DNA from: Heterotrichella gracilis
Taxonomy: Eukaryota > Sar > Xanthophyceae > Tribonematales > Xanthonemataceae
NCBI GenBank assembly: GCA_032358255.1
Contig: JAULBX010001558.1
Span: 1-64,000, forward strand
Length of the DNA: 64,000 bases
Reading direction: 5' to 3'
Made by a program: the position numbers and the translations under genes. The notes under the pieces were generated by a model. It was not told the DNA's origin. It saw nothing but the letters and a program-made list of their open reading frames with translations, and did no database searches. How positions within the stretch are numbered: position 1 is the first letter of the stretch; every line of letters starts with the position of its first letter. This document shows, in pieces, positions 7,601 to 64,000 of this stretch.

Positions 7601-9179
7601 TCATCTTCGCAGATTGCTTGCCCGTAAATGTTGACCACTATGAATGCCCCGTGGTCGGTCATGAGCACGCGCCCCTCCCTGTCCAGCGCCTGAAGTGTGC
7701 AGTATTTTAGCAGAATACTACATGTGGGAGAGCCAATCAAGTTTCCCGAAATTTACTTACTATAATGAAATTTATTGCCCCATGGTCTGCCGTGAGCACG
7801 CGACTCTCCCGTTTAAAGGGATTATAGTAGAGATGATGGTGTAAGTGGGCACATTGCGCAAGATTCAAATTTTAGTGCATGAGTGCATGGCACAAATGCA
7901 TGCAGCCCACATTGGTCTTCATGCACCCACCTGGGGCAACGCCTACCCCCCTCCTCTCCCCATACACCCACGCACTCACCCACCCACCTGCACCTCCATG
8001 GAGCCACACACACACCACACACCCTCCTCCCAATGTACCCACCCACCCACCACCCACCTGCAGCTCCTCCCTGCTGAACTCCTCATACAGCTCCTGCGCC
8101 CCCTGGTCCACGCGGGTGGCGCTGCCGCTGCGCTGGCCGGGGAAGGGGGTTAGGGTTCCCGAGAAACCCTCCTCGGCTGCAAAGGGAACCGCAATGCCTG
8201 CCCTGCAGAAGGTTGCTGTGCCCGAGTAGCCGGTCTTGGTGCGACAGAATCCGAAAAATGACTCCCTGCGTGTGTGAAAAGTTTTTTTGGTGTCCATGTT
8301 GAGCCCGCAGTACTAACGTGGCTGGCCAGACCTTGGAGAGTAAAACGGTGGTTATAAGTACAGTGCTAGGGCACGTATGGTTGGAACAGCTTGTGCACGG
8401 CTGCTGCAAGCCTGATGTAATGCTGGAATGCAGGTAACCAACGGGTCATGGTGTCTCGCAAGACGTTGATGTGTGCCGTGCGCTGCTGTAGGAATTGGGT
8501 AGGGTTTAAGGTTTAGGGTTTAGGGCGCTGCCACCAGCGTTAGTGGGCAGAGTAGTCTTTGGTGGGCTATGCTGGTGCAGAGCAAGACATCATCTTCCTG
8601 CTTCAATTATGGCCCTAGCTGCACGTTGCGCCTCCCTTTCCGTGAAGCTAGGGTTCTGCCAGGTAGGTGGTAGGGTTTTGTCAGGGTTTGCATCCCACGC
8701 ACCACCCTTGCACCACTGCAAATTCCCGATCCAGCTCTGACCGCGCAACCTTGGTCTCTTGGAAGCATATAATATCTGCAAAGGGGGGGACTAAAGGGTT
8801 GCCGAGCCACCCTGTGTGCACTGGCCCCTTGTGCACTCCTGCCTGCCTAGGGTGCGTCAGGTGGCCAAGGGTGCGCCTAACCCCTGTAGATAGCGGGCTA
8901 GGCGCCTGGCAGCTTCTTTTGCCTGTGAGTATATTGGACCCACTTGTTCAAGGTTGATTCCTTGCCTGAGTTACATGCCAAAGCAACAGACACACTTGTT
9001 CACATAGTCCAGGCACACTGGGTCCACGCAAGCAATGACCCCACACTCATAGAACAGGCGAGGTACTCACCGGCCTCCAGTGCGTCTAAAAGGCCTTTCA
9101 AGCCTCCGAACCTTGGCGAAATGGCTCGGATGCCGTTAATATTCCAGGTGACCACACGCAGCTTCTGTGGTGAAGCCAT
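4601..9179 (-). CDS. APEX2: AP endonuclease 2 with PIP boxes and GRF zinc finger
   Basis: DNA-(apurinic/apyrimidinic site) endonuclease of the exonuclease III family, acting in nuclear base-excision repair and PCNA-linked end processing. Eight exons, all phases closing (756 residues): 9179-9071, 8775-8706, 8265-8058, 7689-7452, 7155-7044, 6725-6124, 5791-4967, 4707-4601. Catalytic-domain motifs in order: WNINGIR, ADIICFQETK, SFFGFCRTKTGYSG, VGDLNISPHRIDH, GTRIDHIYAAG and GSDHAPV. A Gly/Glu-rich insert of about 80 residues separates the last two. The linker begins with QTSLKDFL (about 449-456) and holds a canonical PIP box, QKTLKTFF (about 544-551). The C-terminus is a GRF zinc finger: CSGHGEVC joined through NQGRDFWCCARPDG to GRCDFFKWA. 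The start was chosen because MASPQKLRVVTWNING begins just before the first motif. The linker contains an Ala/Ser minisatellite. It converges with the gene ending at 2765. Confidence 0.93.
7769..7810 (-). repeat. Exon echo of APEX2 exon 4
   Basis: This part of intron 3 repeats the exon 4 stretch at about 7639-7680 with roughly nine differences in 42 bases. It lies about 80 bases from the exon it resembles. Confidence 0.75.
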
Positions 9180-9486
9180 CTGTGTAGCCAATCTGTCAAG
9201 GTCGTGCACATAGGATGTTCCAACAAAGTAACAACCTAGGATTGTAGCGGTATGGGCGTCTACTGTTCCCATGTTATTGGCTGCACAGTCTCTGGGGCAC
9301 AAAACGTTTGCAAAGTCAAACGCATGCATGCATACGAGCCCGGGCATGAGCCCAGAGGCTCCAGTAGAGTGAAGGTGACCCCCCAGGCATGACAAGACTT
9401 GATGCTTACATCATAACCATCGCTGGGTGGCGTTCAGGGCCAAAGTCCGGCCAATAGGTCGCAGCATGCCTAAGCATGGCCAATTT

Positions 9487-9690
9487 GCAACCCGCCCACT
9501 TGGTTGCAACACACCTATCCTATCTGCCCTAGCGTACTTAGACCAGAAGAGAAGGGTGAACAGTAACAAGGTACAACCACACTTTGCAGAGCAACATCTT
9601 GTTTGTTGCTCACTCACGGGCAGGACCAGTGGAGGTGCATCAAGTCAAAAAAAAGGGGACACATGTGCAGATGCATGCATGCAAAAATCA
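9487..9690 (+). repeat. Dispersed repeat, copy 1
   Basis: Two blocks here recur at 11550-11617 and 12387-12560. Shared strings include CGCCCACTTGG, TATCTGCCCTA and GAGGTGCATCAAGTCAAA, followed in both by GGTGCAGATGCATGCATGCA or a close variant. Copy 1 is contiguous and lies upstream of the gene at 9917; copy 2 lies upstream of the allantoate deiminase gene. Confidence 0.75.
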
Positions 9691-9916
9691 CCCAAACATG
9701 TTGCTGCAACACATAATAGGCGGCTAACTAGCTTGTAGGGTTCTAAGCTATAGCTTCTTCTGCTCCTTGACTTCTTATTCTACACACTCAGCCCTGCTCT
9801 ATCGCACATGCAGCCTCCTGGGGGTGGGTAGTAGGGCTTTCTACACTCAACCTCCCCTGGTACACCCCAACTCTTTTCGTGTGTGCTGTGCACCTTTTAC
9901 AGTACCTGACTGCACC

Positions 9917-11549: not shown

Positions 11550-12570
11550 GCAACTCGCCCACTTGGATGCAACACCATTATATCTATCTGCCCTATGCTA
11601 TTACGACAAAAACACAAGAGTGAACAGGGGGCAGGAGTTCCTGCAACTTTTGACACCATCGTGGACTTGGTATTTTTGCATGCACATTTAAGGTCCACTT
11701 AGGCCCCTCTGCAAACCCTGAAAAGGCCAACAAAAATTATGACCTTTTTTTGGGGTGGGGGTGGGGGGGGTGGTTTCAGGGCTCGAAAAAAATGTCAGTG
11801 GAAAAATAAAAAAGCCCGATTTTTTTTTTGTAGAAGATATTAGAAGGCTTGCTATAGCAGAAGACCTCACAAACTGTCTAAGCTTTCGTTTGCACACACT
11901 TACGTGTATATGGGTACTGTCTAGCGCTAGTTGTGGTACCACTTGTACCCTAGGCATATGCATGCATGCACACAAGGATGGTAGGAGGTCTCTCTGAACA
12001 CCCACAGCAGTCCCAGCAGCGCCCCGCCCTTAGGCAGCAGCAGCAGCAGCGCCATCCGTTGATGCGAATAGTCTAGGCAGGGGATAGCTTAGTATGTGTA
12101 CTTGAGGGATGACACCCCACGTGTGTGAGCTTGGGATTGCCAATTTATAATTTTTATTTGTTTGCTGCTCTTGCTGAGTGTTGCAAGGACTTTGGTTTAT
12201 TCAGCCTAACTGGGAAGGCTAGTTAGTGCTCAAAACACCCCTTAAATGTTAAAAACAAGTAAAAAGGGGGGTGGGTGGGTCAAATGACAGGGGGTCCAAA
12301 GAAATGTAGGATGGTGTCTGAAATTATTTTTTCTCCTGCCCCCTGGAGTGAACAAAATCAAGCCATGCTTCCCAGTGCACAGCAGACATCTTGTTTCTTT
12401 TCACTCTCCAGTGCCACTGGAAGGAAGGAAGAAGTATTAAAGGGGCGGCAGCGCCGCAGCCATCCCCGGGAGCTCCTCACACCCGTGCCACTGGCATGCC
12501 ATGGCAATTGAGGTGCATCAAGTCAAATCACGGGGACACAGGTGCAGATGCATGCATGCATAACATTCCC
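11550..12570 (+). repeat. Dispersed repeat, copy 2, interrupted
   Basis: Blocks matching copy 1 (9487-9690) occur at 11550-11617 and 12387-12560, separated here by about 770 bases instead of about 30. The insert contains a G-rich tract near 11752-11771 and a short CAG run near 12040. This copy lies directly upstream of the allantoate deiminase start. Confidence 0.65.
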
Positions 12571-12585
12571 TAAAATGTTAGGGAG

Positions 12586-12801: not shown

Positions 12802-15800
12802 ATGGTGAACTGGAGTGCAAGGACCGCTCTCTTGGTGGTGGCCTGGGCACTTCTCCTCACGCATGTCCGCTGCTCAGGTAGGCTGCTCCCCCTTGCCTTG
12901 TACAAACAGGGCACGTCTGTTCCACCATGGCGTGGCCAAGTGGTCGACTTGTGAAAGTATATGGGAATCGCTATTGGGTGCAACGCTGTTCCTGAGGTTG
13001 CCGTGCATTGCACGTTCGCCCTCGACTAGTCATGCCAGCTGGCCAGGGCAGGTGGACCACGTTCGCCCTCGACCAATTGTCCAAGCGCACTGCCACTGTA
13101 CCATTTACTAAGCTTCGCCTGACAGCGAGGCCTTTCACCCTGCGTAAAGGGCATGGGGATATATGCATGCGTTGCGGACCACCCATTGCCCACCCCTTGC
13201 CCTACCCCTTGTAGTGCCTGTGCAGACCTTATGTCGCCACTGTATATGCACTGCACCCATACGGCTTTGGCTGGGCAACGGTGGTGCCCAACTCTCACTA
13301 GCGACTCCCGATGCCATATTTCTGCTGTGGGAAGCGACTCCAATTCCCACAGCAGAAATATGGCATCTAGCATAGGCAACCCAGTTTGCCAAAATTAACA
13401 GTGCATCTGTTTCACTCGCCACCCTGGTACTGGCACCCACATGGCGCAAACGAGCAGCAATGCGCCGGAGATGCACGGCGGTGCATGGCGTCCACCCCGC
13501 AGCTTTGGTTCCAGAGTACTCCTACAGTCAAGCAAGCGTCCCCTCCCCTCCTAGCCAACCACCCCTTGTGTTCCCCAGGGGAGGATATCAGCGATGAAAA
13601 CCTGCTATACCTGCTGCACAAGGAGCCAAACAGGCAAATCCAGGAGATGGGCAAGGTGAGGGAAGGAGGGGGGGGGGCTCACATCCCGCCTCTACCACAG
13701 CGGGTGTGTCATGGGAATTTACCTGCACGGCCTACACATCCCATGCGCGTACGCTCTAAGCCAATGCCTGTTATCTCAAAACCTTGCTGGTTATCCTGGC
13801 TTGCGGTATAGGCATGGGGGAGGCACCCCACTGTGGAGGCCTTCGGGTTGGACACCTGACCCTCAGCGCTGCGCACAGCTTTCAAAACCCTTGGCCAGGG
13901 TGCGGGGTCCCTCCCCTTCCCTCCCATTAACACCTGGCCCCCCGTTCCAGATCAGCGACCGTGAGGACGTGCTTGTGCGCACCTTCCTGTCACCGGCACA
14001 CCTGCAGGCGGCCAGGAAGGTGCGGCGGGAAACCCTAGGGAAGCCCTACAAACCCTACAACAAACCTTGTGCGCAGCTTGGCCCACCAGTGCAGGCTGCA
14101 GGCATGCAGACCCTAAAAGCCAATTTTCTAAACCCTACACAGTTCTGCCTGGCTTTTCACTCTCTGTATCTCCCCGTTGCAGCTTGAGCAGTGGATGCAG
14201 GCTGCGGGCATGCAGACGTGGATCGACAACATAGGGAATGTGCATGGGAGGATCCATGGCATGAAGCCGCTGGAACCCGCGCTCATCATCGGTACGGCTT
14301 AGGGTTTAGGGTTTGAGACTCACGGCGCGAAATTGCGTGAACGTGCGCTCATCATGGGTACCAATTTGGTATGGTGTAGGTTGTAAAGTCAAGGGGTAGA
14401 GGGTTTAGGTGAGGCTTTTGCACCCGCCAACCCTGCACAAACCCCTGCAGATTTATTAGGAAATCTCGTCCACCAGCTCCTCATTACAAACTGCACTAGA
14501 AAATTGACAGTACCACGCCTCCCCACATGCTCCAATACGGCATAGTCATTGTGGTGGAATATCAAAAAGCACGAGGGGATTATCAGCAGCATCGCACGAG
14601 ACCAATTGTATATTGCAAATCCTGCAAGAACTCCTTGTATTATAAGTCCGTCTGCTAAAAAACCACAAAGTGTCGCATATCATTGCAAGGTCATATGACG
14701 TTACCACTCCTGCCCCACAGGCTCCCACTACGACACAGTCATTGATGGCGGGAAGTTCGACGGCATGCTGGGGGTGTTGAGCGGCATTGCGGCGGTGAAG
14801 GCAGCTGTGGCTTCTGCGGCTGTGAAGGCAGGCAGGATCTCCAATGCTGACCTGGCAGCCAAGCTGGCGGCTGGCAGGGGGTTGGACAGGATCTTGCCAG
14901 GTGGGTGGGGTGTCAGTGTGTCCAAGCCAGTGGTGCAATCTTACTGTCAAAAAATCATTATGAATAACAACAAAGATGGCACCACTCATTCACTCGTGTT
15001 GCTTTGGGCCGCGGCGGGTTCTCATTACTGATGTAGTTATATATTGGGTTGGTCAGTGCGTTGACATATATGCATTGCCCAGCAGGCACCCTTGCACGAG
15101 AAGGTGGCACTGCGTGCGCTGTGTAAAGTATATGTACTATCATATACGACACCCCGACTGAAAATGAACTGTAAGGCGGGAGGATGGTGTCAGTAAGGCC
15201 ATGTTGGTATGCATGTGACCAAGTGCCTTCCTCCCCCTCCTTCCACTGTTATAAAACCCTTCACTGTGGTTTGGACAGGGGGGACGCACATATTGATGGA
15301 GCAGCCTGTGGAGGTGATTGCGTTCTCGGATGAGGAGGGGGTGAGGTGAGCAGCAGCAACCCTAAACCCTAACCCTACATCCTTATGGAGCAGCCTGTGG
15401 AGGTGATTGCATTCCAACATGAGGGGTGGTGAGGTCAGTGGGTGGCCCAACCCTAGCTACTGAACCTATGTGTAGTTTTAGCCGTTGACCCTAAACTCTT
15501 CTGGAGCACCTTCCTTGACAGCCGCAACCCTATGGCGACAAAAATGTCCTGAAATCAAAATACCTTGAGCCAAATGCCTGGTCTCTTCATTCCTTAGCCC
15601 CCAGCCCTCCTCACTCTCCACAAAACCCTTGTCTAGGTTCCGCAGCACCTTCCTTGGTAGCCGCGCAGTGGCGGGCACCTTCATCCGTCACGGGCTGGAC
15701 ACAGTGCATGACGTGAATGGCACGGCGCTGGCGCTGGTGCTGCGGGGGGCGGGGCTGGAGGGGACAAGGGAGGCGCTGGAAGAGGTGGCGATGACGCCGG

Positions 15801-18376
15801 ACCAGGTACGATGTGCGGTGGGGTTTCGCGCTAGGTTTTGTCGAGGGTTCAGTAAAAACTGTTGTTGGCTGGAGGGCACCAGGGAGGCGCTGGAGGAGGT
15901 GGTCACGAATGAGGTCGGTGTAGAAATCCCTCCTCCAGCCATGTGCCGCCATTGACATGGTGCATTTCAAGGCATCCCCTCATATGGCTCCTTGTATGTG
16001 CAACCAGCGCAGTCCATGAGCGCACAGGGTGAAACACCCATTTGTTGCAGTCTGTTGTGAAGTCGACCCCAATCCCATTCCCATCCCCATGCCCCGGCGC
16101 TCGCCTACATAGAGGTTCACTTGGAGCACATACGAATCATATAAATATTTCCTGCTTATCTGATCATTTCTATATATGTTTCCCCCTTGTCTCCCAGGCG
16201 CGTGCCTACGTGGAGGTTCACATGGAGCAGGGCCCAGTGCTAGAGCAGATGAAGCAGCCGCTGGGGGTGGTGGAGGGGATTGCGGGGCAGACCTGGCTGC
16301 AGGTGTCAGTCAGGGGGCAGCAGGTGAGGAGGGTGGTGGGGGGGGGAGTGGGGTCCAACCAGAGTTACCCAATTTGTTTTAAGTGTGGAGGGAGGATGGG
16401 AGGATGGGTGGGGGGAGGTTATGGCACCGCTGCAAATCTAGTTTCCCATCATGTATGAAACAGCACCAGCTTCAAGTCCGACCCTCAACCCACCTTCCTT
16501 TAGTTTGCACCAATCCTGACAATTCCCCCCCATTCCATCCCCAGGGCCACGCGGGGACAGTCCCCATGAAGCTGCGCAGGGATCCTGTAACTGCGGCAGG
16601 CCAGATCTTCAATTTTGTGGAATCTACTTGTGGAGGGGGGCCATCCCCGGGGCCATTGGAAGGTAGGGCTGGAGCGAGGGAAAAAATTGCTCTAGTGGGA
16701 TATGGGCTCTGTTTGAAGCAGGGTTTGATGGAAACAGTTGGATATTTTGCCCTTTTGTGTGGCTACAGACTGTGGAAGCTGCTTGAAATGGGCTACCTGA
16801 CAGGCCTTTCACTATTCTTGCTTGCATTGTAGCCGTCATATGGATATAATCTGGCAGAAGGCTTTGCAGTGTAAGCATGTGCCTGCTCTCTCTGGCTGGT
16901 ACACAATGCACACCCCTTACCAGTGCCGAGGCTGTTCTAACATCCTCTGTAGGGTTTGAAGAGGCAGACAACGTGGTGTGCACAGTGGGGTCGATTTCGC
17001 TGTGGCCGGGGGCCACAAATGTGATCGCGGGAGAGGCAAATTTCACGGTGGACATTAGGACCCGCAACGACGCTGTGCGGAATGTGCTGGTGGAGCGAAT
17101 CAGTGGGGGCATTTCCAAGATTTGTGATGCGCGGGGGGTGACGTGTGTGGTGCGGAATATGCACGAGGCCTCTGCTATCCACTCTGATGCTGCGCTGGTG
17201 GGGGATCTCACGCATGCGGCGGCAGATGCAATCAAGGTGGGTGTGCGCAGGCGCTGGGAAGGGGAGGTGACAGGGTGGTGGTGCATGTGATGCGTCCATT
17301 CAGCACTTTGCTGCCAATGGATGTGATGAGAGGGCCTGCAGTGTGCTGGAAGGTGCTTGAGGCTTCAATATTAGAAATGGTTACGGCCTAGGGTTTTGGG
17401 CTAAGGGCTGCTGGAAGGTACTTGAGGCTGCAATAATGGAATGTCCTCATGCGCTGCTGTGGCTGGTGAGTTGACCCTGCATTCGGCTGCAGGTGTAGAC
17501 AAGGTGGGTGTGGGCACTGTTTTAGGGTTGTTTAGAAATGTGCAAATATGAGCCCAATCATTGCAAAATCCTTTCATAAACATGTATAGGCTACTCCAGT
17601 CTCCTCCCTCACTCTCCCTTTCCCTCCTCGTTTCCAACACAATCAGAATTGCGGCTTACCAAACCCCCTCTGTAATCCCCCCGCAGATTCTTGCATCCCT
17701 GGGCATCGCGGCCCCACCCCCACCTCCACCAGGCGCCATCCCCAGGCGCCAGCTCACCGAATTATCCATCCCAGTGCTAGTCAGCGGTGCGGGGCATGAT
17801 GCGCTGGCCATGGCTGACCTCACGCGGGTGGCCATGCTGTTTGTGAGGTGCAGGGGAGGGGTGAGTGGCGCACTTGGCGGGGAGGGGGGTGGGGGATGGG
17901 AGTGTGTCGCAAAATTGAAAAGTGTCGCAGTACCCATGTATTGGATACCTGTTTTAAACGCCTATTGTATGGTTTATGGGGCGATGGTTTTTGTACATAT
18001 TGCATCACACATGGAGTGGCTGACCTTGCACAGGTGGCCATGCTGTTGGTGAGGTGTCGGGGAAGGGTGGGTGACGCTCAGGCGGATGGGTGGGTGGGGA
18101 TTGGGAATGCATGCATCTTGTATGCATCTTGTATGCGCATACGTTGTACAAAGCCTCGACCCTGACCTTGCAACCCTACTCTTGAACTTGACCTGTCCAT
18201 GTCGCTCTCCTTTATTCCTCCCCATTGTCTCCCAGGTGAGCCATTCCCCCCTTGAGCACGTGGAGCCTGATGATGTGGCAGCAGCCAGCACGGCACTGTA
18301 TGCACTGCTGCTGGCACAGGGGAGCGAGGGGAAGGGGGAATTGGGGGTGGCAGGGGGGGTGCGGGACGAGCTGTGA
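12802..18376 (+). CDS. AAH: Allantoate deiminase (allantoate amidohydrolase)
   Basis: M20-family metal amidohydrolase that converts allantoate to ureidoglycine, CO2 and ammonia, recycling purine nitrogen. Twelve exons close in phase to 529 residues: 12802-12877, 13579-13655, 13951-14019, 14183-14291, 14721-14900, 15279-15345, 15637-15805, 16198-16323, 16545-16662, 16953-17236, 17687-17860, 18236-18376. The N-terminus is a signal peptide (RTALLVVAWALLLTHVRC), in line with the ER location of the plant enzyme. Motifs in order: VRTFLSPAHL, MQTWIDNIGNVHGR, GSHYDTVIDGGKFDG (metal-site His and Asp), EVIAFSDEEGVRFRSTFLGS (acidic catalytic pair), VEVHMEQGPVLE, GIAGQTWLQV, GHAGTVPMKLRRDP, NVVCTVGSISLWPGATNVI, VLVSGAGHDALAMADLT and MLFVRCRGGVSHSPLEHVE. 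Length and order match plant AAH. A TGTAA lies 43 bases past the stop. Introns 3 to 8 and 11 carry exon echoes. Confidence 0.95.
13310..13367. repeat. Perfect 24-bp inverted repeat in AAH intron 1
   Basis: Bases 13310-13333 are the exact reverse complement of 13344-13367, with a 10-base loop. Arm sequence begins GATGCCATATTTCTGCTG. It is either a recent foldback insertion or a functional RNA hairpin. Confidence 0.92.
14071..14560 (+). repeat. Exon echoes around AAH exons 4 and 5
   Basis: Three copies are visible. 14071-14112 repeats the acceptor and start of exon 4 (real copy from 14181). 14338-14362 repeats the end of exon 4 and its donor, separated from it by TTAGGGTTTAGGG. 14528-14560 repeats the start of exon 5 (real copy from 14721). 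Confidence 0.8.
15384..15530 (+). repeat. Exon echoes of AAH exons 6 and 7
   Basis: 15384-15430 repeats exon 6 (GGAGCAGCCTGTGGAGGTGA is identical), preceded by CCCTAAACCCTAACCC. 15500-15530 repeats the start of exon 7 (AGCACCTTCCTT is shared). Both lie in the single intron between these exons. Confidence 0.85.
15867..16130 (+). repeat. Exon echoes of AAH exon 7 end and exon 8 start
   Basis: 15867-15914 repeats the end of exon 7 (GGGAGGCGCTGGA is shared). 16090-16130 repeats the start of exon 8 (GCCTAC, then GAGGTTCAC). The intron thus holds echoes of both flanking exons, each nearest its own exon. Confidence 0.82.
18019..18070 (+). repeat. Exon echo of AAH exon 11 end
   Basis: GTGGCCATGCTGTTGGTGAG and its flanks repeat the end of exon 11 with its donor, about 200 bases downstream inside intron 11. 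Confidence 0.88.
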
Positions 18377-48982: not shown

Positions 48983-51900
48983 TCACTTAGCCCCGGGTAT
49001 CTCCCCAGCAAGGGGGGCGGGCGCCGCCGCCTCTCCAGGTGCCACCTCAGCAGGAGCAGGCTTCTCCCCCTCAGTGGCTGTGGGTGTGAGCTCCGCCTCC
49101 TCTTTAGGCAGGGGCTTAGAGGGCGAGGAGTCCCCCGATGAGGAGGAGCCCTTGCCCTTGTTGATGTCCTCCGCCCGCTGCATGATGGAGGTGAATGCCT
49201 CCTCGTCCAGCTTGAACACCGGGGACTTGTACATGTCCAGGGTGCTCTCGTCGTTCACGTGGCCCGCCTGGGGGAAGGGGGTGAGTGGGAGGGATTCATA
49301 CAATTTTAAGAAATAAATAAATAAATCAAGGGTGCTTTGCTCATATCACGGGGACCCATGTTCAAAAGGCACAGGGTTGGGGAGGGGTCTGGTACATGGG
49401 AGGGGGGACCAGACCTGCAGGAGACACCATATAGCCAGACATGCCAACCATCCAGCGCTTGTACGCACCCTAAGTGTCCCAAACTCCATCGCTAGGAGAG
49501 CTTAGCACCACCACTGCCACCACCACTGCCACCACCACCCACCACCACCATCACCACCGCCGCCACCACCACCCAGCTTATCCTGCTCGTCCAGGCAGGA
49601 GGCGTCGTGCAGCGAGATGATGGTCTGGGGGTTTTTGAATACCCTAAGATCCTCAAAACACCGCGACATTGGCAATTTCAACACCACCACCAACGCTACT
49701 CACCAGCTTGTCCTGCTCATCCAGGCAGGAGGCGTCGTGCAGCGAGATGACTGTCTGCGGCTTGTCAAACACCTTGAGGGCGCCCAGGAGGAATGCCACG
49801 TCTATGAGCGGCACTGGGATGAGCAGGAATGCCGGCAGCCATGCCTTCTTGATTGCCAGGCAGCATATGACGGTGAGGTGGGAGAGGGTGATGCCCGTCA
49901 TCAGCTGGCGGAAGGCGGGCGCCCAGATCTGCGGGAGGAGGTGCGAGTTAGGTACATTGTGGACAAGGCTTGATTTATAAGGTGCTGCAATGTTTTATGG
50001 GGGTCAAGCAATTGCACTGCAAGGTTTTTTTTTCTTCTGCGAATCGGCTGCGCACCGCGCCACTCTGTTAGGTCTGCTGGCCCACGTACAGCACCAGGTA
50101 CCTTGGTGCACACAAGTTAGGGTTTTGAGCACGGCATTGCCTCCAGCTAGGGTAAGGGAATTTGCGAGGGTTCCACGCAGGGAATTTCTGTAGCTAGGGT
50201 TTCACAAGGGTTTTGCCACGCACCGCGCCGCCGCTCTCGTAGGTCTGCTGGCCCACGTACAGCACCAGGTACTTGGTGCAGGTGTAGCGCACGGCAAAGT
50301 AGATGAGCGCGGTGATGGTGATGAGCGGGGAGATGAAGGCAAACGCGATGCCGATCATGAAGATGATGTTGTCATCCGCAAGGTCGCGGCCCCACTCAAT
50401 CTCCTGGTGCTGCCACAGGCGGTCCTTGGCCTTCTCGGTGTAGGACAGGCGCGAGCGCAGCCAGAAGATGACCAGGGGGACCACGCGCAGGGTGGCAAAG
50501 GGGATGGACACAAAGGCCTGCGGAGGGGGTGGTAGGGTTTTTATAAGGGTTTCTAAGGGTTTCTTATTTGCTATCCTAGACCCTAAAAACCCTACTCCCG
50601 CCGACCCTCACATAATGTGTGTCATGAAGAACACCGATGTCTGCGGCAGCGCAGTGCTCATGATGACCATAATGCATACATGTTATCGCAATGTTTTTTT
50701 GTTTTTTTGTATCGACTTCCCAACCCACTCCATGAAACCGGCCACGATACGTCATGACAATCCTCTTCTCGCACCCACCCTGATCATGATGTCATACATT
50801 TGTCGGGCTCCTGTACATACATTTTTGGGTTGCTACTCTAAACCCTAACACCCTGCTCGCACCCACCCTGATCATGATGTACGTCATGAAGAACACCGAT
50901 GTCTGCGGCAGCGCAGTGCCCAGGATGACGATGATCTGGCTGGGCTGGTTAATCAGGGTCTTGAACTGGCCGAACACAGAGCCGCCGATGATGGACCCGA
51001 AGAACACAACCACAACCTGCGACAGGCACAACGGCGTTAAACTTGGTCACATGCGGTGAATTGCTGGGGTGGAGCAGCCTGTGCCGGGACTAAATTGGGC
51101 CCCAAGCAGTGCACACAGTCTTCAGCAAAATGTGTGCTTCATACAGCGGAGTACTTGAGTGAATAATGAGCTATCAAACACTGAGGTGTCGATGATGGAA
51201 CTGAAGAACACAACCACAACCTGCGCCAGGCACGATAAGTTGGTCACAGGCGGACAGAATTCCTGGGGTTGAGCAGCCTGTGTCCATGAAACCCTCAACC
51301 CTATACATGTGCCAGTGAAGGCTCTTGTCATGCAGTTGTGGTGAGAAATGGGCCCCAAGCAGTGCACACAATCTTCAGCAAGACGTGGATTTATAAAGGG
51401 AAGGAGCTGACGAGTGAATTCTGAGCTTTCCAAACGCCGAGGTGTCGATGCTGGACCCCACACCCTGAACCCTACACTGGGGTTACCCAGCCCCCCCTCC
51501 TCTCACCTGGAACACGAAGAACTTCTTGGGTATCCCCAGGTCCAGGTTTGATCGCGTGACCACTCCATCCCGACTTATCAATTCAACCATCCTCACCTGG
51601 GTTACATTGTACCACTTCTACATCACCTCATCTGGAACACCCTGTCTACTACCTAGAGCAACACCCAATGAACTTTCCTACTAGTGTACTTATTCCCACC
51701 TGGAACACGAAGAACTTCTTGAGTATCCCCAAATCCAGGTCTGATCGCGTGACCACCCCCTCCAGCCCAGTCATGTAGCGCAGCAGCATGGGCAGGATGG
51801 CGAGGAAGATGGTGAGGACCAGACCTGGAGGAGAGGGATTAGGGTACAGTGTTAGCTAGGGTTTGGATCACACTGACAGGGATTCGGGTAGAGTGTTACG

Positions 51901-54900: not shown

Positions 54901-57900
54901 CCACTTCCTGTACTCACTCTGGAACCAGGCTCTCCGCAATCATGAACCTCTCCAGGCGCCTGACCCCCGCCTCCTGCCACTTTTTCGGAAATGAAATAGG
55001 GTGACTATCAGGGTCCTGGCAAAGGTCTTGGGTTTTGCATTTCAGCATCTTGGACAAATCTGCATGCTTTAATACCACTCACTCTGGCACCAGGCTCTCC
55101 GCATCGACCGCAGTCATGAACCGCTCCAGGCGCCTGGCCCCAGCCTGACTGCCCTCCTGGGGCACGCTCTCCTCCTCTATGGAGCTGATCATTTCTCTCC
55201 CCTTCTCCTCGTTCAGCAGCCGCTTCTTGATTCCCTTGGGCAGGAAGCGCAGGGGGGTGTACTCAAGGCGGGAGGAGGCGGTGCCGTAGTCAACCCCGGG
55301 GATGTCGGTGACAAGCACGGTGTGGGAGGCGGTACCCTGGACAAGGGTTTTAGGGGTGAATATGGTGCAATGAAGGGGTTGCGGGGGTTGGGTGACCAAC
55401 GCAGTGTGGGGGCGGTGCTGTGCGCAAGGGTTTGGGGGTTAGATGTACTATGCCAAAACTTGGGCAGGAAATGCAGGGGGGTGTACTCCAGTCGATAGGT
55501 GCCGCATGCGTGGCTCAACTTGGTCCACCCACGTAGGGTCTAGCTAAACCCTTGCTACCAAACCCTAGGTGCGCCACCCTATGCTCATGAGGTACTGCAT
55601 GCGTGGCTCGACTTGGTCCACCCACGTAGGGTTTTGCCCAAACCCTAGCCACCAAACCCTAGGTGCAAACCCTACCTTTGGTATGCTCATGAAGTACTGC
55701 ATGCGGAGCTCGGCGTGGTCCACCCAAATAGGATTTTCAGCAAAACCCTAGCCACCAAACCCTAGGTGCCGCACCCTACATGCAACCCTACCTTTGGTAT
55801 GCTCATGAGGTACTGCATGCGCAGCTTGACGTGGTCCACGTTTGCCTGCCACAGTATCCACCACAGGAAGATTGCGCCTATCCAGGTGACCGCCCAGTTG
55901 ACCCACATCTTGGCGCTGCCAGACTCAATGTTGGCCAGCGTGGTCTGCAGAAAATAGGGGATACATTTAGTTTTCTTGCTGCTGATTATAATGTAATAAC
56001 GTAATGAAATCAATGAGGTATCCATCTTGGCGCTGCCAGACTCAATGCTGGCCAGTGTGGTCTGCAGCAAAAGGGTATATAATTTAGCCCTTTTGATGTA
56101 AAATGAGTGATAAAATCCATTGCGTTATCCATCTTGGCGCTGCCGGGTTCGATGTGGCTAGTGTGTCTTCAAGCAAAAGGGGGTATATTTAGGCTTTTTG
56201 CTGTTAATAAATATTTGAAAATAATAAAATCATTGAGTTATTGAACAAACGACGCTGCTGTTGTTAAGCGGGGGGGGTCATCCACCCACTCATCCATGTG
56301 TTGTAGGTTGGATTCTGGTGTAGGGTTCAGGGTAAATTATGAGTGCAACGGGGAGGGTGCTGACAAGGACAAGGCGGGTTTCCTGCTTACCTTATCCAGG
56401 TCGCTGAATCCATAGTCCGATGACTGGTAGTTGGGGTCATACCTCCATCCCCAGGAGGACCAGTTGGCAGCACCGAAGTACTCCTGGGGGGTGGGCAGGG
56501 GGGGCACACCAGGGGCGTAGGACCACCACAGCAGGCCGGGAGGCGCGTCGGGGGTGGGGGCGTAAAAGTCAGGGGCCTGAGGGGAGGTAGGTGGGGTCGG
56601 GGGTGAGGCAGGGTTGAGGGTTTGGCTCTAGGTTTTGAAACACCAGTGCCCGGCAGGCCTCATGAGAGGGGGGCGGGACTGGCGGTGAGGTAGGTACCAT
56701 TGCCAGGCAGGAAACATGCGGAAAAAAATAAAAAAAAATCGGGATCTAGTTCACAGTCCCAGGAGTTGACACGCATGCTGGACGCTCGTTAGGAATATGC
56801 AGCCAGTGCGCCCACCAAAATTTTCAGCTTTTAGCAAATTTACAAAAAAAAACTGTATTCCATCATTATGCAAGCACAGGTACCCCTACGCTTCCACCGC
56901 ACGCACCGGCACGTATTTCGGCTTGCTCTCCGCTGCAGCTGCTGGGCCGCCTGGGGGTGCGGGCGGCGGCGGTGGCGACAGCCAGTAGGTGAATGGGTTG
57001 GACTGGCCACCCAGCGACAGCAGCGTGTCCACTTGGTTGCCCTGCAGGGTGTAGGGTTTAGGGTAAATGATGGGTTTAGGGTTTATTTTGGGGGCAGTGG
57101 TAACATGGTGGTTTTCAGCAGAGACCGCCAACAGGGGGTTCACTTGGTTGTCCTGCACACTTAGGGTTTAGGGTATGCTAACTGGGTTGCGCAGGATTTG
57201 CAGGCAAGGTACACAGGCGTGCAAGGAGGCCACGTGTCAGGATGCAAGCAAGTAGACTTTATTTTTCTTTCTTTTTTGGTCAGATAGCACCGCATGTTAT
57301 TTCAGTTGCGGGAGACGGGTGGTGGGGCGTGTATGCAAATACGCTTGTTTGAGCTATTACGCATGTATCCCGCCGCACTGTGTCCATAATATGGCAGTGT
57401 GCGATGATAGGGTATCAAGTGTGGTGCGAGGCGTACCGATATGTTTGTTGGCAGGATGGTGATATTGCAGAGGATGCCTAGCACCAGAAACACCGTCATG
57501 GCTGCACAGGGCAAGGGAGGGGGGCGTTACACAACCATAAGCACTGTGGAAGAAAGGGGTGGGTGCTGCAGGAAAGGGCGGACATCAGGATCTGCTGGCA
57601 CCCACCTATTTCACACCCCTGACAATTTGCAATGCTGGGTCCAGAGCACCCCCTCCAACAGGCAACAGTGCTCTAGGTCCCTAAGGGTTAGGGTATTGGC
57701 GGTGCAGCCAGCTTCATGACCCGCAGGTATGCTGGCTGTATGCAAGTAAGGGTTTAGGGTTGTGTAGAGGCACCCAACTTCATGACACCCAGGTAGGGCT
57801 CAGGCGTAGGGTTTTTGTGGTGCAACCAGCGTCACGGCGCGCAGGTGTGGCTAAGGGTTTAGGGTGTTTTGGGCGCACCCAACTACACGGCACGCAGGTA

Positions 57901-58973
57901 GGGTTTTGGGATTTTTGCCTCACCCAGCTTCATGACGCGCAGGTACGTTGCGCTGTCATAGCCCGCAAGCTGCATGACATCGGCCTCAGTCTGCTGGATG
58001 GAGGTCTTGAAGAAGGTCCCAAACTTGTCTGGGATGTCCTTTGGTCGCTTCTTCAGCCCAGGGATGTAGCTGCAAGGGGAGGAGGGGAGGAGAGGGTCAT
58101 GGGGTGAGTGGAGGGAGGAGGGGTGGTTGGGAGGTGGTGGTGGTTGGTGTGGTTATACACCACACGGCGTAAGTAGAAAAGGGACGCGTGAGTTGGAAGA
58201 GCAGGCTTGGCATATGGATATAGAGCAATACCGTTGTGTGCAGGGTGCTTGCTGTACAAGCGCTAACCCAGTTGGACGGTGCTAGTAGATCTAGAGCACG
58301 GTCTGTTGGGCTGCATGCAAGATGGCATGCAAATGCATGCAGCCCTGGGTGCACGGATGCCGGCTAGGCAGGGGTAACAACGTCCCGTTGACCCCTGTAG
58401 CAACGGCTGTTGGGTTGCTGCATGCACTTGCGCGTGTGGCTTCCACAGGGTGCAAACACGTGTACAAGCTGGCAAATCGCAACCGCCACCCTGGGTGCCC
58501 AGTGCGCCACACCGAACCGCCCCCAACGGGGCACTTAAGGCTCCCGAGACTAGGCATTGTGTCTAACTACGCTGTAGGTCACGCAGATTATGCCCGCCCG
58601 GTGCCTTGAAGCCAGGCTCTGGTGGAATGAGCCATGTACGGGTGGCTGGCGATGGGGCCGCGAGACCCATGTGTGCGCGTGTGACAAGGCAGAAAACCCT
58701 GCGATCTGACGCATCGCAGGGACTATACCCCAGTTTGCGCCTAAGAAAGCCTAAACCAACGCGCTGGGCGGTGTTAGAGGGTTGCGCGCGGTGGTATGGC
58801 GCCCCAGGGGCCGCGCCAAGATGTTCTTCGAAGGGTGGGGCTCACCTCTTGGGGGCATAGAACTTCTTGGTGAAGTCCTTCCTGGCGAAGATGCTGAGCA
58901 GAAGCCATAGGAGGAGGCCCACCACGAAGTTAATAGCGGCGGCAATCGCGAAGGACTTGCCAGAAGTTGCCAT
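48983..58973 (-). CDS. CSC1/OSCA-type mechano- or osmosensitive cation channel
   Basis: DUF221/TMEM63/OSCA family membrane channel, which admits calcium on osmotic or mechanical stress. Seventeen exons close in phase to 999 residues: 58973-58846, 58069-57924, 57501-57437, 57041-56907, 56576-56391, 55944-55792, 55336-55083, 54550-54352, 54018-53836, 53528-53344, 53012-52902, 52491-52316, 51824-51700, 51016-50867, 50517-50224, 49928-49704, 49267-48983. The N-terminal span is IAAAINFVVGLLLWLLLSIF. The next two spans are TVFLVLGILCNITIL and WAVTWIGAIFLWWILW, followed by ASHTVLVTDIPG, the start of the cytosolic RNA-recognition-like domain. That loop (exons 7 to 10) carries a Glu/Asp-rich insert. 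The pore region has AVIGVAFIVMTTFFLVPIGA, VFFGSIIGGSVFGQF and SVFFMTYIMIR, then FATLRVVPLVIFWLRSRLSY. The C-terminus is an acidic Pro/Ala-rich tail. Only about 530 bp separate it from divergent APC11. Confidence 0.93.
49503..49570. repeat. CAC/CCA trinucleotide-rich tract
   Basis: Imperfect CACCAC units with GCC interruptions lie in the last CSC1 intron. Confidence 0.85.
49574..49655 (-). repeat. Echo of CSC1 exon 16 end
   Basis: GGCAGGAGGCGTCGTGCAGC and the following GAGATGA repeat the donor-side end of exon 16 (from 49704) almost exactly, so this copy is young. Confidence 0.92.
50050..50112 (-). repeat. Echo of CSC1 exon 15 end
   Basis: GGTCTGCTGGCCCACGTACA and AGCACCAGGTA match the donor-side end of exon 15 (from 50224) with few changes. 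Confidence 0.92.
50610..50800 (-). repeat. Echoes of CSC1 exon 14 end
   Basis: 50610-50672 repeats the exon 14 end (GTCATGAAGAACACCGATGT, then CTGCGGCAGCGCAGTG). 50770-50800 repeats the adjacent donor region (CACCCTGATCATGATGT). The real exon end is at 50867. Confidence 0.9.
51171..51572 (-). repeat. Echoes of CSC1 exon 14 start and exon 13 end
   Basis: 51171-51240 and 51430-51460 repeat the acceptor side of exon 14 (GAAGAACACAACCACAACCT in the first). 51504-51572 repeats the donor side of exon 13 (ACCTGGAACACGAAGAACTT). All three lie in the single intron between these exons, each nearer its own exon type. Confidence 0.9.
51920..52300 (-). repeat. Echoes of CSC1 exon 13 start and tandem echoes of exon 12 end
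   Basis: 51920-51965 repeats the acceptor side of exon 13 (GGAAGATGGTGAGAACCAG). 52107-52205 and 52206-52300 are two tandem copies of a 97-base unit made of the exon 12 donor side plus GGTTTTAGGTTAGGGTTTCC; the third unit is the real exon end at 52316. Confidence 0.9.
52583..52690 (-). repeat. Two echoes of CSC1 exon 12 start
   Basis: ACGACGGATGGACGTCTCCC and ATGACGGATGGACACCTCCC repeat the acceptor side of exon 12, with a shared AT-rich spacer (TTTACTTGGTTGCATAATAA). Confidence 0.85.
52844..52877. repeat. AAT trinucleotide repeat
   Basis: Imperfect (AAT)n in the CSC1 intron between exons 11 and 12. Confidence 0.9.
53050..53335 (-). repeat. Two tandem echoes of CSC1 exon 10 end
   Basis: Units near 53055-53165 and 53186-53330 each hold a copy of the exon 10 donor side (GTGATGAATGC, then CTCAAGGATC or CTCCAGGATC) followed by the same intron stretch (GGTTCAGGGTAT, then TACGTTC). 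Unit length is about 135 bases. Confidence 0.88.
54083..54295 (-). repeat. Echoes of CSC1 exon 9 start
   Basis: 54083-54127 matches exon 9 start closely (GCCGTAGATCTTGGTGAACTC). Shorter, older pieces at 54172-54205 and 54268-54293 keep ACAACCTGGG. Confidence 0.82.
54908..54972 (-). repeat. Echo of CSC1 exon 7 end
   Basis: ACTCACTCTGGAACCAGGCT and TCCAGGCGCCTGACCCC repeat the donor side of exon 7 (from 55083) with a short internal gap. Confidence 0.9.
55494..55735 (-). repeat. Three tandem echoes of CSC1 exon 6 end
   Basis: Copies near 55494-55535, 55573-55630 and 55676-55730 contain GGTACTGCATGCGTGGCTCG or variants, each followed by ACCAAACCCTAGGTG-type intron sequence. The real exon end at 55792 is the fourth unit. 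Confidence 0.9.
56018..56180 (-). repeat. Two tandem echoes of CSC1 exon 6 start
   Basis: ATCTTGGCGCTGCCAGACTC at 56023 and ATCTTGGCGCTGCCGGGTTC at 56130 repeat the acceptor side of exon 6, including the CTGCAG splice site in the first copy. Confidence 0.92.
57106..57158 (-). repeat. Echo of CSC1 exon 4 start
   Basis: The minus-strand translation DNQVNPLLAVSA echoes the exon 4 start GNQVDTLLSLGG, about 65 bases upstream of the exon with TTTAGGG motifs between. Confidence 0.78.
57705..57905 (-). repeat. Four tandem echoes of CSC1 exon 2 end
   Basis: Copies at about 57711, 57769, 57826 and 57878 resemble the donor-side end of exon 2 at 57924 (CAGCTTCATGACGCGCAGGT). The pitch is 50 to 60 bases, and each copy is followed by a TAGGGTTT-type motif. 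Confidence 0.88.
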
Positions 58974-59506: not shown

Positions 59507-59791
59507 ATGACCTTCAAGGTCACCATCCAGCAATGGCATGCAGTGGGAACCTGGACGTGGGACGCTGGTGACGACGTGTGCGGTATCTGCCGCATGCCCT
59601 TTGACGGCTGCCCTCCTGACGCCAAATACCCAGGCGATGACAGCCCAGTGGTGTGGGGAGTGTGCGGCCATGCCTTCCACCTGCAGTGTATCAACAAGTG
59701 GCTCTCTTCTCAAGCTGAGCAGAAGTGCCCGTTCTGCCGACGGAACTGGGAGTTCAAGTCTGCCAACACCGTGCAAGAGGAAGAGAGCTGA
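59507..59791 (+). CDS. APC11: Anaphase-promoting complex subunit 11, RING-H2
   Basis: RING-H2 subunit that recruits the E2 enzyme to the anaphase-promoting complex, the ubiquitin ligase driving mitotic exit. One uninterrupted frame gives 94 residues, near the 84 of human APC11. The N-terminal strand (MTFKVTIQQWHAVGTWTW) pairs with the cullin-like APC2. RING ligands visible: CGIC, then VCGHAFHLQC, then CPFC, ending RRNWEFKS. In most orthologues the loop between the first pairs reads GCCPDCKxPGDDCP; here it is GCPPDAKYPGDDSP, so three of its four cysteines are gone and the extra zinc site of the family is probably lost. A short acidic tail (TVQEEES) is added. It is the only intronless gene in the window and shares a promoter with CSC1. 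A TGTAA lies near 60525. Confidence 0.93.
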   Translation: MTFKVTIQQWHAVGTWTWDAGDDVCGICRMPFDGCPPDAKYPGDDSPVVWGVCGHAFHLQCINKWLSSQAEQKCPFCRRNWEFKSANTVQEEES

Positions 59792-61620: not shown

Positions 61621-64000
61621 ATGCCTATGGACTCGATCATCGACGACGGGGGCGTCTACTCCGCCACCTGTGGCTACTGCTCCAGCTCAGACCGGACCAG
61701 CGTCAGCCATGGCATGTATGCACACCGCCTGTCAGTCTCGGCATACCAAGCCCTGCTGGATAGGGGCTGGAGGCGATCGGGCTGCTGGCTCTACAAGCCC
61801 GACCCCTCAGCCTCCTGCTGCCCGCCCTACACCATCCGCCTGGACATCCACAAGTTCACCCCGAACAAGGTGCAGCGCCGCGTGCTGCGAAGGCTGGAGA
61901 ACTACCTGGATGGCAGCTGGCAACCGAGTGGCGAGGGGCCAGCAAAGGGCTCCACCGCATTCCCACCCAACACCACAGCAACGCCACCAACCTCCCCAGC
62001 ACACCACCTGGAGTTGGACCCCCCACCCCACCCCATCCTGCCTCGGGAGGTGGCGCAGCCAGGCCCGTCAGCCCGCAACGTGGGTACCTCCCCCAGCAGG
62101 GCGTGCGCCGAGAAGCGACAGAAGCTGGGCCATTTAGCCCACCTGGGCCCGCCTCACTTCCCCCACTCTCGGCTACAGCTCTTCCTGGAGTCACCCGACG
62201 AGGCAGCACACCAGCTGTGCACCTTGGTGGGGGAGGCAGTGCGGGAGGCGGTGGCACACAAAGGGCTGCCAGACCTGCAATACCCTAACCCTAGGGTTCA
62301 GGTGCCGACACAGAAGGCGCGCAAAACCCTATTAGGCAGCGTGCGCTTCACCTCCCCCTCCTGCTTCGCCATGGCGGCCGAAATTAGGAAGTCCAGCGGG
62401 CAATCAGCCTCCACTAGCGGGGGCGCCACCCCCGCGGCGCCGTTCTCCCCCCCTGCCATTGCGCAGCTGCTGGCAGATGCAGCCAATGAGTTGCTGGCAA
62501 GTGGGGCATCAGTGGAGGCCATGTGGGTGGTGGAGCGGGTGGAGGCTACATCAGGGCACCTCAATTTCTACCTCCTGGGTAGGTCCACAGTATTTTATTG
62601 TGGCACCTCATTTTCAGTTTTCATATCCTATAGCCCTGCTATAGCACCTCGATGTGCATTCCCATTGCCAGGAATTTCCATTTGTATGTGCCTGGCGCTT
62701 CAATGTATATTACCTGGCACCTCAATGCTCACTTCCTGGGTGGCTCCTCTGCAGGCGAGGAGCAGGCGGCGGAGGCGGCATTGGCGGGGCGGGGGGCAGA
62801 TGGAGCGCACGAAACAGGTGGGCATTCTGTTTGGGCCACATGTGGCATTGGCACTGGTGTGGGAGCATGTTGGGAAAGGCCATGGGCTCATCTATGCATG
62901 GGAGGTGCTAGTGGTGGGCACATGCATGCAGGATTGTACTGGGCGCTATGCCGTGTTGGGTGCATGCCACATGCATGCAGCCTCATGTTGGGTGGTAGGT
63001 CGGCATGGAGGACAATGACGGTAGGCCAGCTGTAAGCCAATCAGTGTGTGCATGTGAGCCTTAGGATTGGCAACGTTTGCTGATCATGGCAATATGGTTG
63101 CTGATCAGTGCGAGCATTTGAAATGCGGCACAACGGCGAGTTGAGCTCATGGAACTGTCATTGGACAGGAGAGGGGCGTGTAAATGCACCTGCATTCTGC
63201 CCTCCCTTACCCTACCCGGCACCAATTAGTCGGGTAGTCACAGCGCCAATTTACACCGCCCTCATTTTCCAACCAATGACCCGCTCCCACCCAACCCCCA
63301 CCAGGAGACCCCGACTCCACCCACTCTTCCGACACTGATGCCCCCATTGGGCACCGCACCAGCCCACCAGCCACCACCAGCCACCAGCACCAGCCCACCA
63401 TTTCCACCCGCTCACCAGCGTGCGCGTCCCCGGCGACCGCCATGATGCCCTCCCCTCCTCCACCCATGCGCCACTCCCTTGAGCTGCGCCTCCTGCCCTC
63501 CACACCAGCCCTGGTGGAGCAGGAGTGGCCGTTGTACCGCAAGTACCAGGTGGGGCCTCTTATAGGGTTTGTTGCAGAGGTTTGTAGGGTTTGCGACGTT
63601 GCCCAGTGTATTGGATATACCAGGTGGGGAGCGCAAGACGAGTTTTATTTTGTTGTTAGGGTTGATAACAAACAGGGTTTTGTGGCGGTGGGCACCTCTG
63701 GTGGAGGAGGAGTGGCGGCTGTACCGGAAGAAGCGGGTGCACAGGACTTCTATAGGGTCGCTAATAGGTCTCTTGTCGGGGTTTCAAGCTGTTTTTGTGG
63801 CAATTGCTAGCGATGGTGGAGTAGGAGTGGCCGTTGTTACGCATTTACCAGGTGGTGGGGGCACAGGATTCCTGTAGGGATATTGCAGATCTGTTCTTTG
63901 AAGTACCAAAAAGCCACAACCACCTACCACCACCCCCCGTATTCAACCCCCTTACACGTGCAGATGCTCCACCATGGCGAGAGCCGCGAGGCCACCACCG
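61621..64000 (+). CDS. ATE1: Arginyl-tRNA-protein transferase, N-terminal part, 3' end outside window
   Basis: Transfers arginine from Arg-tRNA to acidic N-termini, marking proteins for the N-degron pathway. Exons seen: 61621-62578, 62755-62817, 63305-63549 and from 63964 to the window edge; phases agree. The start MPMDSIIDDGGVYSA leads into the conserved N-terminal domain: TCGYCSSS, SHGMYAHRLSVSAYQALLDR, GWRRSGCWLYKPD and SCCPPYTIRL. The CxxC plus CC cysteines are the metal or iron-sulfur site known in this family. PNKVQRRVLRRLENYLDGSW follows. Exon 3 has HSLELRLLPSTPALVEQEWP and LYRKYQ, and exon 4 begins MLHHGESREATT, the lead-in to the GNAT-like C-terminal domain beyond the edge. A Pro/Ser/Thr-rich linker, partly in exon 3, is longer than usual. 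Echoes fill introns 1 and 3. Confidence 0.93.
62594..62742 (+). repeat. Echoes of ATE1 exon 1 end
   Basis: TGGCACCTCATTTTC near 62601, CTGGCGCTTCAATGTATATT near 62693 and CTGGCACCTCAATGCTCACT near 62714 resemble the exon end (GGGCACCTCAATTTCTACCT). The last copy also keeps TTCCTGGGTGG. Confidence 0.72.
63602..63870 (+). repeat. Three echoes of ATE1 exon 3 end
   Basis: 63602-63632 keeps the donor (ATACCAGGTGGGG). 63695-63762 keeps GGTGGAGGAGGAGTGGCGGC and TGTACCGGAAG. 63810-63870 keeps GGAGTAGGAGTGGCCGTTGT and ACCAGGTGG. All lie in the intron after exon 3. Confidence 0.85.

Follow-up and report, generated by a model that had tools for sequence, protein, structure and literature searches.

Decayed copies of exon edges in the introns of a 64-kb stretch of the Heterotrichella gracilis genome

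Genes of the window and copies of their exon edges

The DNA analyzed here, called the window, is a single stretch of 64 kb comprising positions 1 to 64,000 (forward strand) of contig JAULBX010001558.1 from Heterotrichella gracilis (GenBank assembly GCA_032358255.1), and all counts given below are limited to it. Its GC content is ∼54%. Taken alone, its multi-exon genes, its telomere motifs of plant type, and the DUF760 gene would suggest that it comes from a green alga or a plant. Nine genes were modeled in the window (APEX2, AAH, ORC5, METTL13, DUF760, CSC1, ATE1, SEC, and G30) by using a small self-trained gene finder and manual correction, with transcripts playing no part in the exon models. 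These models contain 12.4 kb of exonic and 22.2 kb of intronic sequence, the latter divided among 62 introns with a median length of 361 bp. Introns in several of these genes carry degraded copies of the edge of an adjoining exon, which we call echoes and whose origin is considered here.

All models other than G30 were compared with Pfam as spliced products. Seven of the eight matched a family (ORC5_C, RSN1_7TM, DUF760, ATE_N, Exo_endo_phos, Peptidase_M20, and methyltransferase), and no Pfam match was found for the spliced product of SEC, a secreted-protein model. The spliced CSC1 product covers positions 1–272 of the 274 in RSN1_7TM, and that of ORC5 covers positions 1–155 of 155 in ORC5_C. 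The second intron of ORC5 is modeled with a GC donor at 22865–22866 (AAG followed by GCACGT). An aminopeptidase was identified by its DUF3458_C domain.

Up to 120 nt of exon from each of 124 exon edges was aligned to the adjoining intron, and alignments with a score of at least 36 were counted as matches. By this measure, 28 of the 124 edges, drawn from the 62 introns of the nine genes, match their own intron. No match was obtained when the same introns were reverse-complemented (0/124) or shuffled (0/12,400), and introns from other genes yielded two matches in 6,488 edge comparisons. These three controls exclude chance or low complexity as the source of the echoes, and we conclude that the exon-edge copies in the introns of this window are real. 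The first-pass annotation of this DNA, which proposed the existence of the echoes, had named shuffled and non-adjacent introns as the appropriate controls, and within the window the proposal withstands both. Other introns of the same gene gave 7 matches in 1,076 comparisons; the coordinates of these matches identify them as echoes already counted, encountered from the opposite end of a short exon.

The edges at threshold belong to six genes (AAH, APEX2, ATE1, CSC1, METTL13, and ORC5). CSC1 accounts for 14 of the 28 passing edges, and 14 of 94 edges pass when this gene is set aside. The first-pass annotation had listed seven genes, of which these six are retained, whereas the seventh, DUF760, has no edge with a score of at least 36 and is represented by a weak pair only. 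Its statement that both strands are affected holds, with local direct duplication across exon–intron borders present in plus-strand and minus-strand genes. When copied exonic bases are counted instead of edges, 985 of 12,376 (8.0%) have a copy of at least 80% identity outside the exons of the same gene at a BLAST word size of 11, and 1,246 (10.1%) at a word size of 7.

Self-BLAST of the window returned 47 repeat pairs (E < 1e-3), all 47 of which are direct and 41 of which are spaced by 65–302 bp, and within this single 64-kb window the search found no repeat pair that connects different genes. A more sensitive scan for pairs at most 600 bp apart revealed 57 direct pairs and 2 weak inverted pairs, and the same local scan applied to five shuffled windows yielded neither direct nor inverted pairs in any of them. 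The 57 direct pairs divide into 36 that join exon to intron, 2 that join an exon to sequence beyond the stop codon, 12 within introns, 6 in unannotated DNA, and 1 of mixed type.

Anatomy, decay, and location of the echoes

In all 36 within-gene exon–intron pairs, the echo sits on the side of the nearer half of the exon from which it was copied, in agreement with the first-pass description of left-exon echoes in the left part of the intron and right-exon echoes in the right part. A search with whole exons extending 3 kb to either side agrees on the side, with the last exon of AAH as the exception, since a whole copy of it lies 2.5–3 kb downstream. In this ±3-kb search, no other exon was found to be copied whole.

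Among the 30 echoes with an alignment score of at least 34, 21 reach the exon junction to within 6 nt, and junction offsets range from 88 to 302 bp. The first-pass annotation proposed that the echoes supply spare splice sites; the splice dinucleotide is present at the exact mapped place in 14 of the 21 border-reaching echoes (GT in 7 of 12 and AG in 7 of 9), and the copies decay with no sign that they are constrained. The edge alignments at this score are 22–71 nt long and 78–95% identical. The graded ages described in the first-pass annotation are borne out. Matches of greater length (up to ∼258 nt) include adjoining intron sequence or tandem arrays, or cover the last AAH exon entirely. The repeated unit also has a visible intron half, in register, in 8 of the 30 echoes by a fixed criterion and in ∼10 of 30 by a looser reading, the clearest cases being a 153-nt unit at 53085–53406 and an array at 55497–55839.

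Coding ends are also copied past the stop codons of two genes. The 3′ coding end of the aminopeptidase (483–544, plus strand) recurs at 639–700 with 85% identity and an offset of 156, as the first-pass annotation had reported, and the end of the last ORC5 exon together with its stop region and 3′ flank (27818–27876, plus strand) recurs at 27889–27951 (81%). Therefore, the feature belongs to the borders of coding sequence and not to splice sites alone.

Differences between the 28 strongest echoes and their exons fall on 47 of 434 first, 32 of 438 second, and 75 of 433 third codon positions. Ten of the 13 indels in these echoes break the reading frame, and four changes create stop codons. We estimate that the copies would be changing at ∼0.09 per site throughout, with the exons adding synonymous changes at a similar rate. 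Judged by these patterns, the echoes behave as unconstrained sequence. Their stops and frame-breaking indels show that they are not retained as exons and exclude functional alternative exons as an explanation. The 24 introns that carry an echo average 408 bp, compared with 327 bp for the 38 that do not (P = 0.006). This difference is consistent with the proposal that the copies lengthen introns, although more space for echoes is also available in a long intron.

In AAH (plus strand), the echoes of exon starts comprise a short one (14090–14111, 22 nt, 95%) of sequence near the start of exon 14183–14291, one that includes the acceptor (14505–14557, 80%) for exon 14721–14900, and one of 32 nt (16097–16128, 84%) for exon 16198–16323. 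Exon ends are echoed at 15377–15433 (exon 15279–15345 with its donor, 58 aligned columns, 83%), 15867–15902 (exon 15637–15805, 36 nt, 92%), 17479–17516 (exon 16953–17236, 82%), and 18017–18077 (exon 17687–17860 with its donor and the start of the intron, 84%), the intron part of the last being in register. The last AAH exon, taken as 18236–18376 to include a little of the upstream intron, has full or partial copies 2.5–3 kb downstream at 20877–21017 (141 nt, 80%), 21111–21217 (107 nt, 80%), and 21314–21347 (34 nt, 94%), and these are spaced ∼200 bp apart.

In ORC5 (plus strand), two echoes of the start of exon 25518–25681 lie at 25268–25319 (88%) and 25384–25441 (91%), the nearer of which includes the acceptor. 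Both edges of exon 26137–26305 are represented, the start at 25938–26003 (81%) and the end at 26460–26519 (82%), and for exon 26814–27012 the first half is echoed at 26663–26697 (83%) and the end at 27165–27198 (85%). ATE1 (plus strand) has two echoes of the end of exon 63305–63549, at 63698–63730 (88%) and 63814–63851 (87%).

The remaining echoes belong to genes on the minus strand. In APEX2, the start of exon 7420–7689 is echoed in the upstream intron at 7776–7810 (35 nt, 83%), and a weak echo of the end of exon 8058–8265, comprising 10 nt of exon plus intron, is present at 7949–7997 (82%). METTL13 carries echoes of the ends of exons 36404–36754 (36223–36292, 84%) and 39422–39801 (39324–39358, 89%). 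The weak DUF760 pair consists of 12 nt of exon and 22 nt of intron from the end of exon 43982–44132, repeated at 43842–43875 (85%).

CSC1 exon ends are echoed at 49574–49633 (exon 49704–49928, 90%), 50058–50110 (exon 50224–50517, 92%, with a frame-breaking indel and a stop), 51507–51570 (exon 51700–51824, 91%), 54918–54978 (exon 55083–55336, 79%), and 57708–57739 (exon 57924–58069, 88%). The end of exon 50867–51016 has a far echo at 50611–50673 (89%), whose intron part is in register, and a short young echo across the donor at 50765–50792 (28 nt, 96%). Two echoes are found for the end of exon 53344–53528 within a 153-nt tandem unit (53030–53114, 71%; 53196–53250, 85%), the nearer with its intron part in register over 92 of 93 nt, and two for the end of exon 55792–55944 in a tandem array of ∼100 nt (55580–55621, 90%; 55676–55723, 92%). 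Starts of CSC1 exons are echoed at 51177–51220 (exon 50867–51016, 86%), where further intron repeats with offsets of 253–255 adjoin, and at 51927–51960 (exon 51700–51824, 94%), 52656–52699 (exon 52316–52491 with the acceptor side, 86%), 54081–54123 (exon 53836–54018, 84%), 54612–54661 (exon 54352–54550, 78%), and 57126–57175 (exon 56907–57041 with the acceptor side, 80%), and the start of exon 55792–55944 is echoed twice (56023–56061, 95%; 56130–56165, 81%). Finally, exon 55083–55336 has echoes of inner parts of its 3′ half (54770–54833, 74%) and its 5′ half (55459–55494, 89%).

Tandem repeats are also present within exons. Tandem Repeats Finder detected four arrays in modeled exons, at 30193–30233 (period 18), 36596–36701 (period 6), 39570–39606 (period 15), and 39673–39739 (period 30). 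The second of these is a hexamer, TGTGGC, in ∼18 copies that is read as coding in the METTL13 exon model. All four periods are multiples of three, which would be expected if selection acts as a filter on the same type of event inside exons.

Outside the gene models, frame-wise Pfam searches of the unannotated stretches returned nothing above the cutoff and one weak RING match, and the same scan overlooked genuine multi-exon genes. Searches of this kind on unspliced DNA yielded few domains (AAH and METTL13 were both overlooked), and their silence does not prove that these stretches are gene-free. The window gave no Rfam match at the gathering threshold, and no tRNA was found in it. Queries of a collection of viral contigs and of one of genomic contigs returned no relative. 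An APC11-type RING gene with a single-exon model lies at 59507–59788, and the window-wide local scan revealed no repeat inside it. Two short direct repeats (34470–34539 and 34560–34599) are located just past the stop of the SEC model at 34457. Longer-range repeats, 2–3 kb apart in DNA without gene models, pair 9487–9563 with 11550–11627 and 9632–9702 with 12510–12579, and these are possibly the remnant of a mobile element.

Probable duplication across exon borders and competing explanations

The explanation we favor, and consider probable though by a modest measure, is that recurrent small direct duplications of tandem type cross exon–intron borders and the borders between coding sequence and flank, after which the outer copy is kept and the inner copy decays. 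Such duplications would recur in these genes with offsets of ∼70–300 bp, and one that spans the boundary of an exon with its intron, or the end of coding sequence, would leave that border present twice. The outer copy would be held by purifying selection as the functional edge of the exon, with its splice site, and the inner copy, lying inside the intron or the 3′ flank, would be freed from selection and begin to decay. The intron half of the unit would decay in both copies and be fragmented by intron turnover, so that mainly the exon half would stay visible.

Several parts of this proposal are observed, namely the direct orientation, the side, the contact with the border, decay without coding constraint, and homology of the whole unit in about one-fourth to one-third of cases. 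The remaining echoes, which lack whole-unit homology, presumably arose in the same way. Ordinary tandem duplication combined with selection explains most of the anatomy, including the rule that left echoes lie on the left and right echoes on the right, which follows because selection keeps the outer splice site. The first-pass statement that no named process fits is too strong, given that simulated ordinary tandem duplication places copies on the correct sides and that a precedent exists in a potato RNA-dependent RNA polymerase (RdRp) gene (PMC4974935). Two other processes were rejected on the side rule. Intron gain by AGGT duplication (the Rogers model) predicts copies of the left exon at the right end of the intron, and the opposite is found, and templated insertion of local sequence, with the border itself not duplicated, would ignore side, whereas 0 of 36 pairs violate the rule.

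An assembly artefact, in which collapsed haplotypes or mis-joined reads double the exon edges, is highly improbable. The copies are 5–22% diverged, are graded in age, number up to three per edge, and contain frame-breaking indels and stops, whereas allelic copies should by inference differ mainly at synonymous sites.

Forward simulations of duplication and decay used duplication lengths taken from the observed echoes, with several rates set to bring the exon–intron count near the real one; a two-replicate exploratory simulation with seven settings was excluded from the run counts given here. Simulated and real values are similar for the identity of the exon part (0.88 vs 0.86), the mean position in the intron (0.27–0.29 vs 0.37 for left echoes and 0.70 vs 0.71 for right echoes), and the fraction reaching the border (0.61–0.62 vs 0.70). 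When all sequence changes at equal rates, the intron part is in register in 114 of 235 simulated echoes (49%) compared with 8 of 30 real ones (27%), and this falls to 77 of 258 (30%) when intron-born sequence changes threefold faster.

Several results weigh against border-crossing duplication. The real in-register share lies under that of all ten equal-rate replicates (the lowest being 11 of 28) and fits the faster-intron setting only, and in a simulation of pairs that had no turnover, homology of the intron half was expected in 85% of cases. This last misfit is overstated because that simulation ignored intron turnover, which the forward simulation corrects. The missing intron halves can be accounted for, but this requires exon-derived copies to turn over more slowly than intron sequence. 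In addition, several young echoes (for example, 50058–50110, at 92% identity) have no intron-half homology, and three of the nine gene models (DUF760, SEC, and G30) are free of echoes at a score of at least 36. To the same side of the balance belong the counts of repeats away from exon borders that are given below.

Two further explanations concern the origin of the echoes. One holds that echoes arose by unequal exchange between strongly diverged alleles, in which exon edges were recognizable and introns differed from the outset. The splice consensus often marks the limit of homology, even where the exon half is 92% identical, and divergence of the exon part is equal with or without a visible intron half (52/419 vs 110/940), both of which accord with such exchange. 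Nevertheless, echoes without an intron half show no greater synonymous share (50/110 vs 23/52), and we consider this origin improbable. The other explanation, to which we give a similarly low probability, is that the duplications are old and that their exon halves were refreshed by gene conversion or kept by selection as splicing elements. Clustering of mismatches in three echoes would agree with this history (CSC1 13L, P = 0.007; AAH 6L, P = 0.016; CSC1 14L, P = 0.017), but across the 25 echoes tested clustering is not significant (combined P = 0.12), and gene-conversion patches were set back for this reason. The stops, the frame-breaking indels, and the estimated near-synonymous pace of change also speak against it.

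The position of the repeats relative to exons can be compared with rotations of the exon map within genes. The 36 exon–intron pairs observed compare with 22.9 ± 3.3 under rotation, a count reached in 0 of 5,000 rotations. Among the 49 within-gene pairs, 28 have one copy that extends over a border, compared with 15.3 under rotation (again 0 of 5,000), and without CSC1 the count is 18 compared with 10.3 (1 of 4,000). These rotations count against the idea that neutral tandem duplication blind to placement, together with survivorship, is sufficient by itself, with edge copies staying recognizable because one partner is conserved. This idea does reproduce the side, the identity, the border reach, and, given faster intron change, the loss of the intron half, and its share of linked repeats (0.22–0.31) matches the real 9 per 35.

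It overpredicts repeats elsewhere. The pair finder applied to the real data yields 35 exon–intron pairs, 6 standalone intron pairs, and 9 linked intron pairs, and simulated means for the standalone class are ∼9–29. None of 64 uniform placement-blind runs attained the real standalone share of 6 in 41. A rate series attained it in 1 of its 48 runs, and simulations with intron rates of one, three, and five times did so in 0 of 40, 0 of 40, and 4 of 40 runs. With exons of other genes swapped in, the finder gave 0 exon–intron and 20 intron–intron pairs, so the standalone count of 6 depends on best-hit assignment, for which the simulations used the same function. Similarly, the 29 kb without gene models contains 5 repeats (6 in the window-wide scan), and four runs at each of three rates predicted 29–147. 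Part of this DNA may still be genic, since frame-wise Pfam searches overlooked known multi-exon genes. A simulated sixfold edge bias fits better, with 2 of 16 and 5 of 16 runs reaching the real share. We therefore regard placement-blind duplication alone as unlikely. The alternatives are that duplications are concentrated at exon borders or that their traces are lost more quickly elsewhere than was modeled; stated from the side of the borders, duplication would be commoner, or its traces longer-lasting, there than elsewhere.

Telomere-like motifs are concentrated in the introns. Counts of AAACCCT per kb are 3.6 for introns, 0.8 for unannotated DNA, and 0.4 for exons, and the density of AACCCTA/AAACCCT in introns is ∼4–6 times that of unannotated DNA and ∼10 times that of exons (for example, at 49929–50223, 55337–55791, and 15346–15636). 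AGGGTT lies toward intron starts in the nine modeled genes. For AACCCT/AGGGTT, the segments from junction to echo have 12.2 per kb, the remainder of echo-bearing introns 7.5, and echo-free introns 3.3, and the enrichment between junction and echo has a within-gene permutation P of 0.020. The richness of echo introns in this motif is a hint of break repair, and is a lead rather than a demonstration.

In one form of break repair, staggered double-strand breaks would be repaired with telomere-type filler, and the broken segment, duplicated on both sides, would yield the order exon edge, filler, and echo. Besides the motif densities, this process is favored by telomere insertions in the horse that accompany direct duplication at staggered breaks (PMC7215372), and it would account for echoes without an intron half. 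Counting against it, the motif is present in only 19 of the 30 junction-to-echo segments, the strand order expected from telomerase acting at both ends is not significant (P = 0.17), and the process by itself leaves the preference for exon borders unexplained. We judge it distinctly unlikely. A bolder form, which we also consider unlikely, is that breakage and repair are aimed at the exon borders of transcribed genes, each event duplicating the border and often adding telomere-type repeats, as a main source of intron length. If this were true, introns would be built largely from the scars of their own exon edges, an outcome not to be expected from a placement-blind mutational process.

Precedents and significance

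The closest known case is the potato RdRp gene, in which a tandem genomic duplication extends over an intron–exon boundary (Ma et al. 2016, PMC4974935). The duplication is direct, crosses the border, and carries splice signals, as do those proposed for the window, and one intron of the potato gene holds a further tandem duplication, of 83 bp. The potato event produced a new intron, whereas no gained intron is seen here and the inner copy decays within an existing intron, and here more than one-fifth of the tested edges are affected. Tandem exon duplication and mutually exclusive exons, as surveyed in PMC9013439, likewise involve homologues of exons in adjoining intronic DNA of the same gene. 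That survey seeks homologues usable as further exons, whereas the copies here are partial, mostly involve one border, and have broken frames. It gives the share of exonic bases copied as ∼2% in human, 0.08% in fly, and 0.06% in worm, using exonerate with genes extended by 15%, so that comparison with the 8–10% obtained here by BLAST crosses aligners and is rough.

Interstitial telomeric insertions at double-strand breaks (PMC7215372, PMC2246262) would compare with the echo introns in that telomere repeats are inserted, sometimes along with a direct duplication of the flank. Duplication of the flank is a minority outcome there, being the sole change at 3 of 66 horse loci and present at 6 of 130 loci in rodents and at 4 of 25 in primates. 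In the accessible portions of these reports no tie of such loci to exons was found, unlike the echoes. The same motif lies within plant genes as telo boxes (AAACCCTA; PMC3022908), which in Arabidopsis and rice are enriched in 5′ regions and are near or below the genome average in introns, whereas here the motif is densest in introns. Introners (PMC9860276) also represent a repeated process that shapes introns. These are elements that are copied among many genes, whereas between-gene matches here number 2 in 6,488 comparisons, a figure that concerns exon edges rather than whole introns. Among the open-licence literature matches listed, judged from titles and the beginnings of abstracts, we found no account of exon-edge copies at this density, of their concentration at edges, or of a link to telomere motifs. 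Thus, to the extent of these sources, border-crossing tandem duplication is known from potato, and its density, its edge concentration, and the telomere-motif link are apparently new.

How introns grow is an open question that is often answered with transposons, and in this window the material comes from the neighboring exon. The constrained original of each echo provides a reference for dating it, and in this way the rate of duplication, the course of decay, and the turnover of introns could be measured without a second genome. Decaying copies of splice sites would also supply these genes steadily with near-miss splice sites. A genome-wide excess at exon edges, if borne out, would implicate breakage or repair that is tied to exon borders.

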